NCBI GenBank assembly: GCA_943704415.1
Contig: CALSCO010000113.1
Location: 17,793-81,792, forward strand
Direction of reading: 5' to 3'
Length of the DNA stretch: 64,000 nt
Origin: Parvularia atlantis
Lineage: Eukaryota > Opisthokonta > Rotosphaerida
Part shown: positions 6,301 through 53,860 of the stretch, piece by piece
Numbering within the stretch: the first letter of the stretch is position 1
Layout: each line of letters begins with the position of its first letter
Program-made: the position numbers and the translations under genes
Notes under the pieces: generated by a model
What the model was told of the DNA's origin: nothing
The model's input: the letters and a program-made list of their open reading frames with translations, nothing else
The model's database searches: none

Positions 6301-6580
6301 CAGCGACGGCGACGGCTTCATGACCAAGCTCGACTTTTTCGAGTTCCTGTACGAGTTTGGCAAGACGTACCTGACGGATGTGCAGGTGCGCGCGCGTGTG
6401 TGTGTGGTGCGGGCGTGCAGTCGTTGTGACGCGGAGCGAACGTCGCAGGTCGAGCGCTGCTGGGCCGAGGTCGACCAGAGCAGGCGCGGCATGGTCAGCT
6501 GCCAGGAGTTCAGCCGCGGCGTGAAGAAGCTGGACGAGGTCGAGTTCTACGCCGACTGGAGTCCGGGCGACCTTGTGTGA
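3341..6580 (+). CDS. Scaffold with three PH domains, coiled coil, SH3 domain and EF-hands
   Basis: Start MMTSDAEAFSDLEDEP at 3341. Three PH domains are seen by their paired signature, each cut by an intron at the same place: GWLVKQGGG/SWKKRWFVL, GYLTKQGGAIK/SWKRRWFVLR, GFLTKQGGSIK/SWKKRWFVLR. Each ends in a helix containing a Trp (AWIDAIRAAL, EWMHMLLQIV, DWIRVLQDAM). Next come charged coiled-coil exons (about 5160-5700), an SH3 domain (VKDYVPN, DDTALVFKAGDIIAI, GVFPYRFVEEL) and a calmodulin-like EF-hand loop DSDGDGFMTKLDF with a weaker second hand ending at 6580. This suggests a membrane-phosphoinositide scaffold tuned by calcium. The coiled-coil exons have the least certain boundaries. I know no named protein with this exact order. 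Confidence 0.8.
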
Positions 6581-6640
6581 GCGGGCGGAGGGGGAGGTTG
6601 CCCGCCGAGTGCGCGCTTCATTGTTGCGGATCTGAACGCG

Positions 6641-7611
6641 ATGTCGCTGCCGGTGCCGCGCGCGCGGCCGTCGCACATGGGCCGCTCGGTGTCGTGGTCA
6701 GGTGGGCGCGACGGGCCGGACGGCGGCGAGACGATCGGGCCGCGCCTGCCGCGCTCGCCGCTCGCGCTGGGCAGCAGCATCGCCGGCGGCGACCTTGCGA
6801 GTGCGCTCAGCGTGGGCTCGGCGTCGTCGCCGGTGCTCTCGTCGGCCTCGCCGGCCACGCCGCTGCTGCTGGCTGGACGCATCTCGCCGGGGCGCACGCC
6901 ATCGCCGCAGCTGCCGCAGCCGCCGCAGCCGCCGCGCCGCGGCCGCGCCGAGACGGGCGCTGGGGTGGGTGCGCGGCAGCCCAACGTGGAGATCTACGGC
7001 TTTGTGCTGTACCTGGGCTCGTTCGTGGGCTACGGTGCGGCCGATGCGCGCGCAGACGATGCGCGGGTGCTGACGCGCGCGTGCGCACGCACGTGTGTGT
7101 GTGTGGGGGGGGGGGGGGGGGGGCCGCAGCCGCGTTCATCCTGTGGGCGTACCTGCCAGACGACGTGCTGCACCGCCTTGGTATCACCTACTACCCGAGC
7201 AAGTGCGCCGCGACGGAGCGGGTGGCCGCGGCGCAGCTGACCGGGCGTGCGATGCGCAGGTGGTGGGCGCTCAGCCTGCCCGTGTACGTTCTCGTCCTGG
7301 CCGGGTTCGTCGTCCTGTTCTACGTCGCCTACAGCCTCATCGCGACTGTGCCGCTCGACTCGATCCACGCGCTGACGGACGAGCACGCCAACGTGATTGA
7401 GAATCTGGGCTCGCAGACGTTCAAGCACGAGGACAAGGTGCCCGAGCTGCTCGACATCCCCATCTCGGTCGTCAACAAGTGCCTCTTCCAGGTGCGCACA
7501 CACGCTTACGCTGCGTGCGCTGTGCCGATGTGCCTGACGTCGCACCAGGGCGTGAGCACGCGCGACGGGCCGGGCGGGACAGCGGCCGCGGCGCGCGAGG
7601 GCCAGCTGTAG
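6641..7611 (+). CDS. PIGP: PIG-P/Gpi19 subunit of GPI-GlcNAc transferase, with N-terminal extension
   Basis: Subunit of the ER complex that adds GlcNAc to phosphatidylinositol, the first step of GPI-anchor synthesis. About 110 Ser/Pro-rich residues precede the PIG-P domain. The domain shows EIYGFVLYLGSFVGY, then an intron holding a G-run, then AFILWAYLPDDVL, a second intron, WWALSLPVYVLVL, a second membrane helix and the motif PLDSIHALTDEHAN, ending DIPISVVNKCLFQ. Splicing the intron after YYPS joins YYPSK to WWALSLPVY, exactly as in PIG-P. A last 57-bp intron leads to a short tail. Long N-terminal extensions also occur in some fungal and plant homologues. Confidence 0.85.
7105..7123 (+). repeat. 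Poly-G run of 19 bases in a PIG-P intron
   Basis: Nineteen consecutive G after a short GT run, just before the intron acceptor CCGCAG. Its true length may vary and is prone to sequencing error, but being intronic it does not touch the reading frame. Confidence 0.9.
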
Positions 7612-14848: not shown

Positions 14849-17202
<2,354 letters not shown>

Positions 17203-31519: not shown

Positions 31520-32671
31520 CTACCGTTTCGCTCGCTTCACCCGCTGATGCAGCAGCGCCAGCCGCGCGTCGCCACCAGCGCCGAGCCCCGCCGTGCTGCC
31601 CGCCGCGAGCCCGCGCGGCACAATCGGCTCGAGCAGCGCGTCGGCCGCGCGCGCCGGCGCACCGAGGGCCTCGCCGGGCCGCCAGCCCATGCGCCGCAGC
31701 AGTCGGTTGCCGACGTTGGCCTCGTCTAGCGGCACGTCGACCCCGCTCACCTCGTCCGGCCCACGCGCGGCCGCCGCGACCTCGTCCAGGTCCGTCCCGA
31801 CGAGGCGACGCCGCTCGGCCGCGCGGTCGCGGTACCCTGGCGGCGCGGGCGGCGCGGCCGCGGTGTCGCCGAGCAGCGTGCGCTTGAGCTGGCGCAGACC
31901 CTGGCGCCACGGCACGGCGCCCTCGACAACGGGAGCAGCAGCACCAGAAGCAGCAGGCGCAGCCGTGTCGGGCAGGTGCAGCGACACGAAGCGTCGCCAC
32001 AGACAGCCGTCGCACACCGGCTGCGCGGGCGGGTGCCAGTGCGCCTGCAGCGCCGTCGAGCCGATCTCGACGACGTCGCCGTGCGCCAGCAGCCGCGGCG
32101 GGGCGCCACCACCGGTGTCGCGGCGGTCGGCGACGCCGAAGCGCGCCTCGTGCGGGTCGTAGAAGAAGCTCGCGTGCAGCTCGGCCACGTCGTCGTCGCC
32201 GTCAAGCACGATGCGTGGACCAGCAGCCGCCGTCGCGGCCGGCGTCCGGCCCACGTCCGCGCCGAGGCTGCTGACGACGTACAGCGCGTTGGCCGGCACG
32301 GCGGATGCGCGCGTCGCCTGCACGACGAGCCGGAGCTGCGGCGGCCAGACGTCCGCGTCGACGCCGTGCCAGTCGGGCAGCAGCACGCCCGAGTCGGCAT
32401 CACGCCACAGGCCGTACGTCGCGTCGAAGACGGCGCGATCGCGCGCGTCCTCTGTCGTCGCTGCTGCTGCGTCCGCTGCTGTCGAAGCATCCGCAAACGG
32501 GTAGATGTACGCGAGCTGCTCGTGGTCGAAGTAGAAGTAGGCGCCGGGCGCGTCCGGGTGGAAGCACCACTCGGTGCTCTGCGACTCCCAGAAGCCGCGC
32601 GCCTCGCTGTAGACAAAGTCGCTCGGCGCCGCGTGGTCGGGCTCATCGGCAGCAGCACTCATCGGCAGCAC
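31520..32671 (-). CDS. AGGF1-like protein with OCRE-like, FHA and G-patch regions
   Basis: Single exon of 383 residues. The N-terminus (FVYSEARGFWESQSTEW, YFYFDHEQLAYIYPF) resembles an OCRE repeat as in AGGF1 and RBM5. An FHA-like region follows (DVGRTP, VAELHASFFYDPHEARFGV, HGDVVEIGS). The C-terminus holds a G-patch: VGNRLLRRMGWRPGEALG and AAGSTAGLGAG. The OCRE-FHA-G-patch order is that of AGGF1, a nuclear RNA-related protein; a splicing link is inferred from the G-patch. It is 29 bp downstream of an in-line gene's stop codon on the same strand. Confidence 0.75.
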   Translation of the reverse strand: MLPMSAAADEPDHAAPSDFVYSEARGFWESQSTEWCFHPDAPGAYFYFDHEQLAYIYPFADASTAADAAAATTEDARDRAVFDATYGLWRDADSGVLLPDWHGVDADVWPPQLRLVVQATRASAVPANALYVVSSLGADVGRTPAATAAAGPRIVLDGDDDVAELHASFFYDPHEARFGVADRRDTGGGAPPRLLAHGDVVEIGSTALQAHWHPPAQPVCDGCLWRRFVSLHLPDTAAPAASGAAAPVVEGAVPWRQGLRQLKRTLLGDTAAAPPAPPGYRDRAAERRRLVGTDLDEVAAAARGPDEVSGVDVPLDEANVGNRLLRRMGWRPGEALGAPARAADALLEPIVPRGLAAGSTAGLGAGGDARLALLHQRVKRAKR

Positions 32672-32700
32672 GCATCGCAGCGGAAAGACAACTCAACTGG

Positions 32701-33282
32701 TCACAACTCCTCGTCTACGTCGTCCGCAGCTGCTGCTGCTACCGGTGCGGCCACAGCAGGGGCGGACGTCCCGACGAGGCCGTGCAGGTGCCGCCGCAGA
32801 CGCTCCAACACGACCTCGTTCTTGGCGCTGAACAGGAACGCGCCCTGCCCGCGCACGTCCAGCCGCAGGTGCACCGCCTGCCTCGGCTCGGCAGTTTTCT
32901 GCGGAGACGCAGCTGTCAGGTGCTGCGCTTGTGAGCCCACGCCCGGCGCACCCGCTCTGTCGACGGCTTGCGGTACAGCACGCTGCCCAGCAGCTCGTCC
33001 ATCTCGATCTCGTCGTCCGGGAACACGCTGTTGTCGCGCTCGGCCGGGTCCACGACGGCGATTGGCAGCCTGCACGCGCGGTCAGCCGCGGCACTGCAGC
33101 GCAAGCGCAGCCGGCGACGTCACTGGAAGTCGATCAGCGCCAGGCCCGACAGGACCGTGAGCATGATCGCAAAGTACTCGGGGTCGCGCATGAGCGCGTC
33201 CGACGCGTACAGCTGCGCGAGCGTGTACCGGTTGCCGCCCGCCGTGACTGGTGCGCCTGCAACACGTGCGCGCTCAGAGGCT

Positions 33283-33362
<80 letters not shown>

Positions 33363-36189
33363 GCACACACGCCCACAACGCGCACCTGCCATGGCCGCGG
33401 CGTGCAGGGCCTCGAGGCACTCGGTCAGCGTGTACATCGACGAGGACGTGGCGGGCGCGTGCCCGCTGCTCCGGTTGAGCGCGAGCCGGATCCACGCCTG
33501 GCACAGCAGCGAGTCGTCGCTCGGCAGGTCGAGCGACTGCAAGTACGCCGTGTCGTCCCTGATCACCCGGCGCGTCAGCACAAGCAGCGCGACGCTACTC
33601 GGCGCACTTGGGGATCATCGGCTTAAGCACGGCGTCCCAGAAGACCGCGCGCCGGGCCGCGCCGCGGAACAGCGAGAAGGCGTCCGGCGCCGTCCCAAAG
33701 CCGTGCTTGAGGCACAGCTCTATCCGCTCCGCGAGGTTCTCGACGGCTGCGCGCGCACATTGCCCGTCAGCGCCATCCGTCCGCGCACACAAGACGGCGC
33801 GCACCGGGTGTCAGTTCGCCCACCGTCACGAGCGACTTGCTGGCACGACTGGGCTCGCTGTCCGGCCCACCCGCCCGTACGGTCTTGGGGATGAGCCCGT
33901 GCAGCTTCTGCGCTCGGACGGCTCCATGAGATGCCGTGGCGCACAACGCAGCCCGCCCGCACCTGCACGGCCATCTGCAGCTCGTCGCACAGCATCTGCT
34001 TGACCTGCAGCTCGCTCACGATCGTGCGCGGGTTGCGCACGGGGTTCTGCGCGGGCCATCGCGTTGGCTGCGTGACGCGTGAGGGCCGACGGACAGTGAC
34101 GCACCGGATTGCGCTGCACCAGTGCCTGCGGCAACATGAGAGACGGGCTCTTGGCGTAGACGCTCTCCTGCGTCTTCAGCACGACGTATGCGCCATATGC
34201 CTGCTCCTCTTGGTTGATCTCGCGCAGCTCGCGGAAGCTGCGATGCGCGCGTGTGACTGCTGGTCCACGCACACGCACACAGCGCACCTTGTCAAGTCGC
34301 CCACGGCAAAGCTGAAGCGGAAGCGCCGCACGCCGTGCACTTTCACCAGCGGATCGCTCTTGAGCGGCTCGAAGTAGATGCTGTGCGCGGCGGAACGGTC
34401 AGGCGGGGCCGCGAACCGGCCGGACCGCGCACGCACCGGCTGTGCGTGAACACGAGCACGCCGCTTACGTCGCCGTACGCGCTCTGGCTCTTGACTAGCT
34501 CGCGCAGCTGCACCTGGCGTGCGGGCAGCGCATGAGCGGCTCAGCGGCGCGTGGCGAGCAACGAGACGCACGAGCGCAGTCGACGTGGACGAGCGCGAGG
34601 TCCGCGCTGGCCGTGTGGCGGGCGACGTCGCCGTTGGTAATGCGGCGCGGGGCGATGCGGGCGCGTCCTCGGGCTCGTCCGCAAAGTCGTCGTTGCCGAG
34701 CTCGTCGTCGCGCAGGTAGTCGGGCACGCGGTCCTGCACGATGAACGGCGACAGGTGGCGCTTGCCGAGCTCGTTCACCTGCCTGGCGCCCGCACCCCAC
34801 AGCATGAGCGCTGGACGCACGTGCGCGCTCATTGTCATCACCTTGCCAGGTCGTCGTAGTCCTCCAGCGACGTGCACAGGAACCCAAGCAGCAGCGACGG
34901 GTCGATCTGGTTGTGGCGCAGACGCAGCGGCGCATGGTTTACCTGGAAGCTGCGTAGCTTGTCCTGCACGGCGCGTGTCAGCCGCCAGCCCTGGAACGCG
35001 CCCGCCGACGAGACACGCACCATGCCGCACGCCTTGAGGTCGGGCAGCGGCACCATCGGCTGGGTCGTGTGCGGGTCCAGGTAGTAAAAGTGCTGCGCGT
35101 CGCTGCCGAAGAAGAACATGGCCTGGTGCGCCGTCTGGCCGTTGCGGTACCTCTGCAGGCCTGCGTCCCACAGGCGTGAGCAAGGCGCGCCGCGGCCAAG
35201 CCTCGCTCGCGCACACACGCACCGAGGTTGGACCCGATGCGCGCCGCGAGCAGGTTGCCCTGCTTGGCTCCGACAAAGCCCACAAACTGCCGCATGCGAA
35301 AGTACTCGCACATGGCTGGGATATACTCGGCGTTCAGCGTGAGGCCGAGGCGCAGCGGGATCAGGATAAGCAAGCCGCGCGCGTCGCCCGCCGCATCGAC
35401 GAGCTTGGCGACCTCGGAGCGGTACACGGAGCCGTCGCGGCAGAGCAGCGCGCCCGTGTCGAACGGGTGGTGCTCCTGCATGAGCGACGCGACGACCTGC
35501 GCGCACGACGTCGGGCTGTGCCACTGGCCGACGCTCGTCTTGTAAAACTCGCCTGTGATCGCCAGCTGGTGGATCGAGTAGGGCGCGCTCGGCGCGGGCG
35601 TGTCGTGAAACCACGAGAGCATGGTGCGGTACACGCCAAAGACCTCGGCCGCGTCGGTGTCATCGCCCATAACGAGCCCCGCCACGCTCTGCTTCATCTG
35701 CAGCAGGCGCTGCGCGTAGTGCGGCCCGAGCCGTCGCCGCAACAGCGCCTCGGCGAGCAGCATCTGCGCCGAGCGCAGGACGCAGCCCCACGACGTGTCG
35801 GCCTGACGCCGATGTCAGCGCGCACCCACGTCTGATATCGCTCTCACCGCGCGTACCGTTAGGTTCGTGTGCCCGATCGGCGCGAAGCCCGAGCGGTAGC
35901 TCAGCCACGGCCGCTGGCCGTACTCGGTCAGGAACGCCGTCGCGGCGGCGCGCTGCGCCTCGGTCCACGCCGCGCTGCCGCCTGCGCCGCCGCTTCCGCT
36001 CCCGCCTAATCCACCGGCACCGCCGAGCAGCGTCGACGACGCGGCCTGGAAGAGCGCGAACGCGGGCGATGCGGCCGGCGCGACGAGCGTCGTGGGTGGC
36101 GTGGCCGGCGCCACGCCCAGCAGCGCTTCAGGCGGCACGTCGGCGCAAACGCGCCCTCCCGCGAAGTGCACCGTGCTGAGCGGCACCAT
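32701..36189 (-). CDS. ATG4: ATG4 cysteine protease fused in frame to GRAM-like and RUN domains
   Basis: Residues about 70-400 are ATG4, which processes and delipidates ATG8: WLSYRSGFAPIGHTNLT, catalytic SWGCVLRSAQMLLAEALL, YSIHQLA, SVGQWHSPTSCAQV, LLILIPLRLGLTLNAEYI, the Asp/His site YLDPHTTQ, then IDPSLLLGFLCTSLEDYDD and FIVQDRVPDYLRDDELGNDD. The same frame goes on through a Thr/Ser linker, and a standard intron (34552-34493 region) leads to a GRAM/PH-like fold (VQLRELVKSQSAYG, GVLVFTHSRIYFEPLKSDPL). After more exons a RUN-like domain follows (AVENLAERIELCLKHGFGT, WDAVLKPMIPKDDTAYLQSL, CQAWIRLALNRSS, YFAIMLTVLSGLALIDF). No in-frame Met or stop separates the parts. RUN domains bind Rab/Arl GTPases in other autophagy adaptors. 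Confidence 0.72.
33286..33358 (+). repeat. (CA)36 microsatellite inside an intron of the ATG4-RUN gene
   Basis: About 36 CA units (GT on the coding strand) within the intron that splits the RUN domain between AAMA and the next exon. It lengthens this intron to about 120 bp, twice the local norm. Confidence 0.95.
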
Positions 36190-51158: not shown

Positions 51159-53860
51159 ATGTCGAAGACGATCAACCGCGTGTCCAACTCGTTCGTGGTG
51201 CGTGTTTTCGCGGCGCGCGCGACACACGGCGCGCTGAGAGCGAGTGGGACGCAGGTGAAGCGCGGCTTCGCCACGTTCAAGGTCGAGGGGCTGATCAGCA
51301 TATGGAACAAGCGGTGGTTCCTGCTGCGCGAGGGTGCGCCATCCGCCGCCAACGCGCCTCTCTCCGGCGTGCTCAACATGGCACACAGACCAGCTGTCGT
51401 GGCACCGCAACGAGAGCTCGCACGCGCCCTTGGGCGTGATCGGCACCGGCGAGATCAGCGAGGTCTCGCGCACAGACAACAAGCAGTACTGCCTCCAGAT
51501 CGTCACCAAGGGCGGCCAGACGTACCTCATGTCGGTCCGGAACGACGACGAGCTGTATTCGTGGATGGACGAGCTGCAGAAGGCGCGCGCACACGCAGCT
51601 GTGGCCATCGCGACGTAGCAGCTCGGCCTGACCACGCACGCACCGTCTGCAGCTCATCAGCAACTCGACGGCGCCGACCGACTTTGTGCACCACGTCCAC
51701 GTCGGCTACGACAACGCGACGGGCGAGTTTGTGGTGCGACTTGGTGGCGGGCCGTGCGTGAGTGCATACGGCGGCCTCACGCGGCGCGCGGCGCCCAGGG
51801 CATGCCCAATGAGTGGCAGCAGCTGCTCAGCACGTCGAGGATCACGAAGGAGGACCAGGCGAAGAACCCGCAGGCACGCAACACGCGCGTGCGCACGCAC
51901 AAGCCGCCGCGGCTCATCGCGCGAACCGCAGGCGGTGCTCGACGTGCTCGAGTTTTACACGAGCGTAACCGACAAGGACCGCTATAACCCGGACCTCGGC
52001 GCGACGTTTGACGACCTCAACATGCACGACGACGACTTCCCGCCCTCGCCCGCGCAGGCGCCCGCGCCGCAGCAGCCCGCGGCGTTCTCGTACACGGGCG
52101 GGGCGCCGCCGACGCTCGGCCGGCCGGGCAAGCCGGTACGCGCGCTACACGCTGGTGCTATGCCGTAGCTCACGCAACGAGCAGCCGGGGCCCCCGCAAG
52201 TCGCGCCCAAGGTGCCGCCGCAGGTCGCGCCCAAGCCGGGCTCGAACCTGCCGCCCGTGCCGACGCCGCAGCGCACCGCACCGCCGCCGCCGACGTACCA
52301 AGGTGCGCTTGCACACGCACGGCCCGATCGCCGTGTCTGACGGAGATGTTTGCACAGCCCCGGCCAGGCCACCGGTGCAGCTCACGCCGCCGCCGCCGCT
52401 CCCCGGTGCGGCGAGGAAGCGCGGCCTTGCGTGCAGCGTGTCTGATCGTGAGCGCGCGCACTTCAGGCACCGCAGCACCCGTGCGCCCGACCGCCCCGCC
52501 CGCCGGTGCTGCCGCCGCGGCCGCGGCGCAGGCGTCGCCGCCGCCGCAGGGGCTCGTGTCGCAGCCCAAGGACAAGAAGGTCGAGAAGAAGATCGAGTTC
52601 CGGGAAAGCGCCGACATCATGGACAAGCTGCGCGCGGTCGTGTCGCGCGACGACCCGATGAAGCTCTACACCGACTTCAAGAAGATCGGCCAGGGGTGCG
52701 CGCGCGTGCAGGCGACGCCGAACGCACGCCGCTGACACACGCGTGTGCGCTCAGCGCCTCGGGCTCGGTCTACGTCGCCAAGGTCCGGAAGACGAAGGAC
52801 GTGGTCGCGATCAAGCGCATGGACCTCAACAACCAGCCGAAGAAGGACCTGATCATCAACGAGATCATCGTCATGCGCGAGAGCATGCACCCGAACATCG
52901 TCAACTTCAACGAGAGCTACCTGGTGAAGGTGCGGCGCCCGCGGGCTGCGCGCGGCGCACGACGCGGCCCGCTCACCGACGGCGCAGGACGAGCTCTGGG
53001 TCGTGATGGAGTACATGGAGGGCGGCTCGCTGACGGACGTGATCGACAACAACCACATGAGCGAGCCGCAGATCGCCGCGGTCACGCGCGAGGTCATCGC
53101 CGGGCTGGCGCACCTGCACAGCAAAAACATCATCCACCGCGACATCAAGTCGGACAACATACTCCTCGACCTCAAGGGCCTCGTCAAGCTCAGTGCGTGC
53201 GCCTGTGCAACGCGCCCGACCCGCTGCGAGCTCACGCGTCGCGTCGCGCCGCGCCGCGCAGCCGACTTTGGCTTCTGCGCCAAGATTACCGAGAACCGTG
53301 GCAAGCGCTCCACAATGGTCGGCACGCCGTACTGGATGGCGCCCGAGGTCGTCAAGCAGAAGGACTACGGGCCAAAGGCGCGCGCTGCGCGACGGACGGC
53401 GGCCGCGGGCTGACGGGGCGTCGCGCGCAGGTGGACGTGTGGAGCTTGGGCATCATGGTCATCGAGATGATCGAGGGCGAGCCGCCGTATCTAGACGAGG
53501 ACCCGCTCAAGGTGCGCGCGCGTGATTGCGCGACGGCGGTGTGGCGGCGGCTGAGCGTGCGCACACGGCAGGCGCTGTACCTGATCGCCACCAACGGGAC
53601 GCCGACGCTCAAGAACCCGGACCGTCTCAGCGGCGGCCTCAAGGACTTCCTGGCGCGCTGTCTGGCAGTGGACGTGGACGAGCGCGCGTCGATGCAGCAG
53701 CTCGCAGCGGTGCGCAGGGCAGGCAGCGGCTTGGGCGTGCTGCGTGTGGCTGACCAGAGCGCGCACGGTGCACCACCAGCACCCGTGGCTCAGCAGCGCG
53801 TGCCCGCTCGACACGCTCGGTCCGCTCATCCGGAGAGCGATGCAGGCCGCGCAGAGCTGA
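51159..53860 (+). CDS. PAK: p21-activated kinase with PH and CRIB domains (Cla4 type)
   Basis: Cdc42/Rac effector kinase. Start [13 protein letters not shown]. The PH domain is rebuilt over introns ([34 protein letters not shown]). [53 protein letters not shown] Pro-rich linker with PPQVAPK repeats follows. Kinase: [99 protein letters not shown], ending [10 protein letters not shown]-stop at 53860. PH-CRIB-kinase is the architecture of fungal Cla4/Skm1, whereas animal group I PAKs lack the PH domain. About twelve introns. Confidence 0.93.

Follow-up and report, generated by a model that had tools for sequence, protein, structure and literature searches.

When and to which membrane ATG4 is delivered bears on every ATG8 recycling step. 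A passage of PMC9631991 reports that loss of the LIR cuts the affinity of ATG4B for LC3B by ~200–500-fold, and a passage of PMC7431699 describes RUN domains as principally binding Rap and Rab GTPases. Throughout this text, the terms "LIR" and "regulatory loop" follow the nomenclature of human ATG4B. Here we compare a predicted protein with three groups of described proteins. It shares with ATG4 (Peptidase family C54) the catalytic domain, the Tyr, Cys, Trp, Asp and His positions and a PDY tail, but differs in two replaced glycines, ~23 extra loop residues, the absence of the acidic LIR-like end and the presence of a C-terminal extension. Like RUFY, PLEKHM1, FYCO1 and Rubicon, it carries a RUN domain above the Pfam cut-off; unlike them, it has neither FYVE nor PH by Pfam and is joined to a protease. 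Its likeness to the FAN/NSMAF-type GRAM of BEACH proteins is confined to a 20-residue stretch, 40% alike to that of a gene on another contig of the genome (C531), whereas a PH_FAN, GRAM or BEACH label by Pfam is absent.

The window, by which we mean the whole 64,000-nucleotide stretch of DNA that was analysed, lies on contig C26 of a small, very GC-rich eukaryotic genome (16.25 Mb, 616 contigs). Its minus strand can be read from 36189 to 32701 as a single gene of 14 exons, 2700 nt and 900 amino acids, which bears out the coordinates and strand given in an earlier note on this DNA. The gene starts at ATG 36189, and its features are as follows.

35857–36189, minus strand: exon 1, with the start codon, a low-complexity N-terminus and the beginning of the ATG4 catalytic domain (conserved Tyr)
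35223–35802, minus strand: exon 2, further part of the ATG4 catalytic domain, carrying the catalytic Cys (DTSWGC)
34842–35160, minus strand: exon 3, rest of that catalytic domain, with the Asp and His of DPH; the Pfam C54 match ends here
34783–34841, minus strand: intron 3, with TGATGA; its retention would mean an immediate ATG4 stop; holds ATGs in frame with exon 4
34572–34782, minus strand: exon 4, ATG4 family tail (PFIVQDRVPDY, then acidic) to about 34653, followed by the disputed joint
34573–34650, minus strand: joint, with a frame-0 coding signature (PRRITNGDVARHTASADLALVHVDCA); the fusion uses frame 1 instead
34437–34513, minus strand: exon 5, putative GRAM-like strand (GVLVFTHSR), on a weak basis
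34288–34380, minus strand: exon 6, putative GRAM-like stretch continued (IYFEPL), on a weak basis
34237–34105, 34046–33963 and 33907–33805, minus strand: exons 7–9, from the GRAM-like stretch to RUN
33746–33599, 33558–33386 and 33256–33124, minus strand: exons 10–12, RUN domain (Pfam PF02759)
33069–32952, 32898–32704 and 32703–32701, minus strand: exons 13 and 14 and the stop codon, end of the gene

A scripted check of the gene model found one open reading frame running through all 14 exons, with every join made by an intron, as the earlier note had claimed. All 13 introns are of the GT-AG type with CAG acceptors and measure 40–129 nt; because the exon borders were picked by eye to make the phases fit, the phase fit is no independent test. 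Intron 4, which follows the joint, is 58 nt long (GTGCGT...CAG) and resembles the other introns of the gene. Intron 11 (33257–33385, minus strand) is 129 nt long and consists mostly of a GT repeat, the other 12 introns being 40–62 nt.

The 900-residue product was searched against Pfam profiles and matched Peptidase_C54 with an E-value of 3.3e-60 (204.4 bits, cut-off 25). For comparison we used 65 ATG4-like homologues obtained by searching the ATG4 region against a database of 5.8 billion sequences, with 7994 candidates scored. In the alignment the Cys faced Cys in 65 of 65 homologues, the Trp was likewise kept in all 65 and the Tyr in 64, and the Asp and His positions were each kept in 62, the remaining three being gaps. 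As these catalytic positions are kept, the ATG4 part could be an active enzyme. The same alignment upheld the SWGC catalytic Cys, the DPH site and the family C-terminus noticed earlier. Two glycines found in all 65 homologues are replaced in the window copy, the one before WGC by Ser and the second of the loop GG by Ala. Additionally, the loop from GG to the next aromatic pair spans 29 residues, ~23 more than in the homologues, where it has 6 residues in 45 of the 46 in which the pattern was found and 5 in the other. The divergent Gly sites and the longer loop lie at 35223–35290 and 35110–35160 of the window (minus strand).

Exon 4 begins with PFIVQDRVPDY, which aligns with PFSVAARRPDY of a Phytophthora protein; the P of this tail is present in 55 and the Y in 52 of the 65 aligned homologues. 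Since this tail lies beyond intron 3 and is common to homologues, the start of exon 4 is ATG4's own sequence, and an ATG4 ending at intron 3 was rejected. After PDY the window copy has an acidic run of ~21 residues and then no stop, against 30–48 residues (101 in one) in the 32 of 65 homologues whose tail motif could be found near the end. An acidic LIR-like C-terminal end with the usual stop was looked for in the window copy and is absent. The acidic aromatic-hydrophobic C-terminal motif occurs in 43 of 65 homologues, and is hence neither universal nor decisive. The ATG4 paralogue on contig C310 ends normally, with DDDDFDLM, a looser form of the motif, and two stops, and the one on contig C15 apparently does so too, closing with acidic residues and a stop of its own (one frame, read by eye with no gene model). 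Intron 3 (34783–34841, minus strand) opens with stops in the ATG4 frame, so that a transcript retaining it would encode a plain truncated ATG4.

In the second half of the protein, RUN (PF02759) was matched at 31.9 bits in the whole protein and at 38.5 bits in a 170-residue piece, above the curated cut-off of 22; the domain occupies the last third of the 900 residues. Thus the spliced product returned both Peptidase_C54 and RUN, two of the three profiles that the earlier note had named for a check. The third fared otherwise: no GRAM match was listed by Pfam up to an E-value of 10, in a search whose filters drop most matches above ~0.1, and besides RUN no Pfam domain was found in the second half. 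A search of solved structures gave PLEKHM1 as the sole match, which was not significant (E 0.28). What remains of the GRAM claim is the weak resemblance of the 20-residue stretch (GVLVFTHSRIYFEPLKSDP) to a GRAM-type stretch that tblastn found, at E 0.85, in the FAN-like BEACH gene of C531. Of 500 shuffles, 1 equalled the score of 44 for this alignment, in a test that is not fair because the target was chosen after tblastn had shown the likeness. With the frame-0 peptide of the joint placed in front, 3 of 500 shuffles reached 44, and with the frame-1 peptide 1 of 500. The frame-0 peptide neither lengthened nor raised the alignment; the score being 44 in either case, the comparison does not separate the frames. 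The stretch in exons 5 and 6 may therefore be called GRAM-like, its identity as GRAM being unproven. A FAN-type N-terminal PH was also considered for the window protein and rejected, as Pfam PH_FAN finds the C531 gene and not the window gene, and as 356 of 500 shuffles equalled the score of the alignment to the C531 gene. The C531 gene itself (L049, ~6360–7100), which is of the FAN/NSMAF-like BEACH kind, matches PH_FAN strongly (E 1.9e-41).

We then examined the joint. All frames lack a stop between 34777 and 34543 and an ATG between 34805 and 34533; therefore, in the sequence as given, the ATG4 and RUN parts cannot be two complete genes. The earlier claim of a run without in-frame starts holds for the exons but not for intron 3, where three ATGs (34838, 34832 and 34805) share the reading frame of exon 4. 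The claim of an in-frame join fared similarly: the join is open, but the frame it uses is suspect. Coding potential was scored with a codon model built from 1856 codons of other genes in the genome and the window, leaving out the gene under study (19 of 20 pieces were used; one, L003, was dropped because of a stop within it). For 34650–34573 the score was 11.2 bits in frame 0, −12.9 in frame 1, which is the fusion's, and −4.2 in frame 2, against a true-frame median of 10.1 in the gene's other exons. Only 5 of 497 true-frame control windows were at or under −12.9, none of 994 wrong-frame windows reached 11.2 (stops scored −5), and 3 of 2000 dinucleotide shuffles did so in their best frame. The margin of frame 1 to the best other frame, −24.1, was worse than in all 497 control windows from the gene's other exons. 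Scoring synonymous choice only gave the same direction more weakly (6.1, −0.3 and 2.2 in frames 0, 1 and 2), the −0.3 of frame 1 lying at the 5th percentile of true-frame windows.

Controls set the limits of this test. At the low-complexity start of exon 1 (61 windows), the true frame was usually beaten (median margin −2.4, lowest −14.7), so that in disordered sequence the codon test has little power. Of 11 introns scored after scaling to 78 nt, one gave 13.3 in its best frame; for the stretch of non-coding DNA upstream of the gene the maximum was 9.2 and the median 1.7. Overall, the ATG4 tail reads in frame 1, the joint resembles frame 0, and exon 5 is again in frame 1 across a regular intron. 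An intron inside the joint was rejected: no GT occurs between ~34725 and 34627, so no GT-AG intron can switch the tail frame to frame 0. The codon statistics thus contradict the frame that the fusion uses at the joint. Either a recent, real fusion reads the linker out of its old frame, or bases of the assembly are wrong or missing. The earlier observation is in this way partly confirmed, and its interpretation partly supported: both ATG4 and RUN are real, and the sequence as given contains nothing that divides one from the other.

ATG4 genes were located by exon-by-exon matching on three contigs of the genome, C26 (the window), C310 and C15. The C310 copy is not fused, and the C15 copy, judged by eye, seems unfused. 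A genome-wide RUN search listed six places and missed the exon-split RUN of the window gene; that it named neither C310 nor C15 is therefore of little weight. The same layout was sought among relatives: a Pfam RUN label was found in none of the 65 ATG4-like proteins (495–1575 aa), and past residue 440 the window protein matches none of them. As the best homologue, the Phytophthora protein, is only 32% identical and no close relative is among the 65, this absence is weak evidence. Ten of the 16 homologue rows that name an organism are stramenopiles. Neither the whole 900 residues nor the RUN half, used as queries, had a match at E 0.001 among the 7996 and 7994 best candidates, respectively, an absence that means little. 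In the titles and abstract openings of the open-licence PMC literature searched, no ATG4–RUN protein is described.

Our leading explanation, which we hold tentatively, is that an ATG4 paralogue and a (GRAM-like)-RUN gene, once neighbours on the same strand, have become one transcription unit. A short stretch holding ATG4's last residues and stop together with the second gene's start would have been lost, and exon 4 would be spliced to exon 5 via the normal GTGCGT...CAG intron to give a single 900-residue protein. The linker (34650–34572) would be the RUN gene's old first exon, now translated in a frame other than its original one; this would explain the frame conflict at the joint. It is a reading that requires no sequence error. 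The two genes would presumably once have been separate, and the loss would be present in the organism, not only in the assembly. Supporting this explanation, the stop and start are missing, the frame is open, intron 4 is regular and both C54 and RUN are matched by HMMs. The PDY tail is ATG4's own and has no acidic end, unlike in the C310 copy and 43 of 65 homologues; a frame-0 coding signature follows directly after the tail; and packing is tight at the other end of the gene, where 38 nt separate the RUN stop (32701) from the ATG that follows (32662), which is one spacing and no survey. Against it stand the frame-1 margin at the joint, exceeded in badness by none of the 497 controls, and the lack of RUN in all 65 homologues together with the unfused C310 and seemingly unfused C15 copies.

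In the main rival, the assembly lacks a few tens of bases. Two ordinary genes would then be present, the missing stretch would hold the ATG4 end, its stop, a spacer and the RUN start, and the open frame would be luck. We consider this rather unlikely. It fits the frame break so soon after PDY and the unfused C310 copy and 65 homologues, the gene that follows lies a mere 38 nt away, and GC-rich DNA easily keeps frames open (all three are open for ~230 nt here). However, it requires an assembly error exactly at the joint and makes the regular intron 4 and its matching phase (~one in three by chance) further luck; the frame-0 first exon of the RUN gene would also need a TAG acceptor (34497–34495) or another irregularity, where all 13 acceptors of the model are CAG. 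An improbable alternative keeps the fusion real and has the joint read as RRITNGDVARHTASADLALVHVDCA, in frame 0, the assembly being in error by one or two bases near 34650 and 34575. Frame 0 at the joint indeed scores like true exons, and VHVDC immediately ahead of VQLREL presumably suits the beginning of a GRAM of FAN type. This alternative needs either one indel in ~50 nt plus the TAG acceptor or two compensating indels, and the C531 alignment gained nothing from the frame-0 peptide.

An established fusion of the kind that the earlier note describes, with a disordered linker in frame 1 and a frame-0 signal due to chance, appears highly improbable. The open frame and regular introns agree with it, as does the weakness of the codon test in the 61 exon 1 windows, but the joint margin is worse than even the lowest of those windows, and the frame-0 score was reached by only 3 of 2000 shuffles. 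Scarcely to be expected are alternative products, in which intron 3 is kept, ATG4 ends after its catalytic domain and a second protein starts from one of the three intronic ATGs; TGATGA at the 5' end of the intron and the exon 4 frame of those ATGs suit this, whereas the second protein would bear the ATG4 tail, a part of ATG4 in most of the 65 homologues. Taken together, the three readings with a fused product (old first exon as linker, joint in frame 0, established linker) make a real ATG4–RUN protein probable, with considerable room for doubt; such a protein is possible, not proven.

If the once-neighbouring genes are now one unit, as in our leading explanation, ATG4 would have lost the LIR-like end tying it to ATG8 and gained a RUN domain. 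A small GTPase on an endolysosomal or autophagosomal membrane, and not ATG8, might then bring the enzyme to lipidated ATG8, so that GTPase recruitment would replace ATG8 recruitment. More tentatively still, we picture an ATG4 whose LIR end has been swapped for a GRAM-like and RUN module and whose active-site region bears a divergent loop; a small GTPase, and not ATG8 itself, would then set the site of ATG8 delipidation. A natural ATG4–RUN fusion, if true, would offer small-GTPase recruitment as a candidate answer to how ATG4 is delivered, and would show that the LIR end is replaceable. Because ATG8-like genes are found on three contigs and two further ATG4 genes exist in the genome, a specialised third copy is possible. 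If the joint is instead an assembly slip, it would be a warning for packed, GC-rich genomes that an open frame and regular introns are weak proof of fusion.

Several other genes were also seen in the window. The next gene on the same strand (31523–32692, minus strand, ATG 32662) encodes a G-patch protein (Pfam E 5.9e-6) whose N-terminus, by eye, resembles OCRE. Also by eye, exons of a Rab-type GTPase lie at 16387–16852 (plus strand), and a PH-like stretch followed by kinase exons resembling p21-activated kinase lies at 51388–53766 (plus strand).
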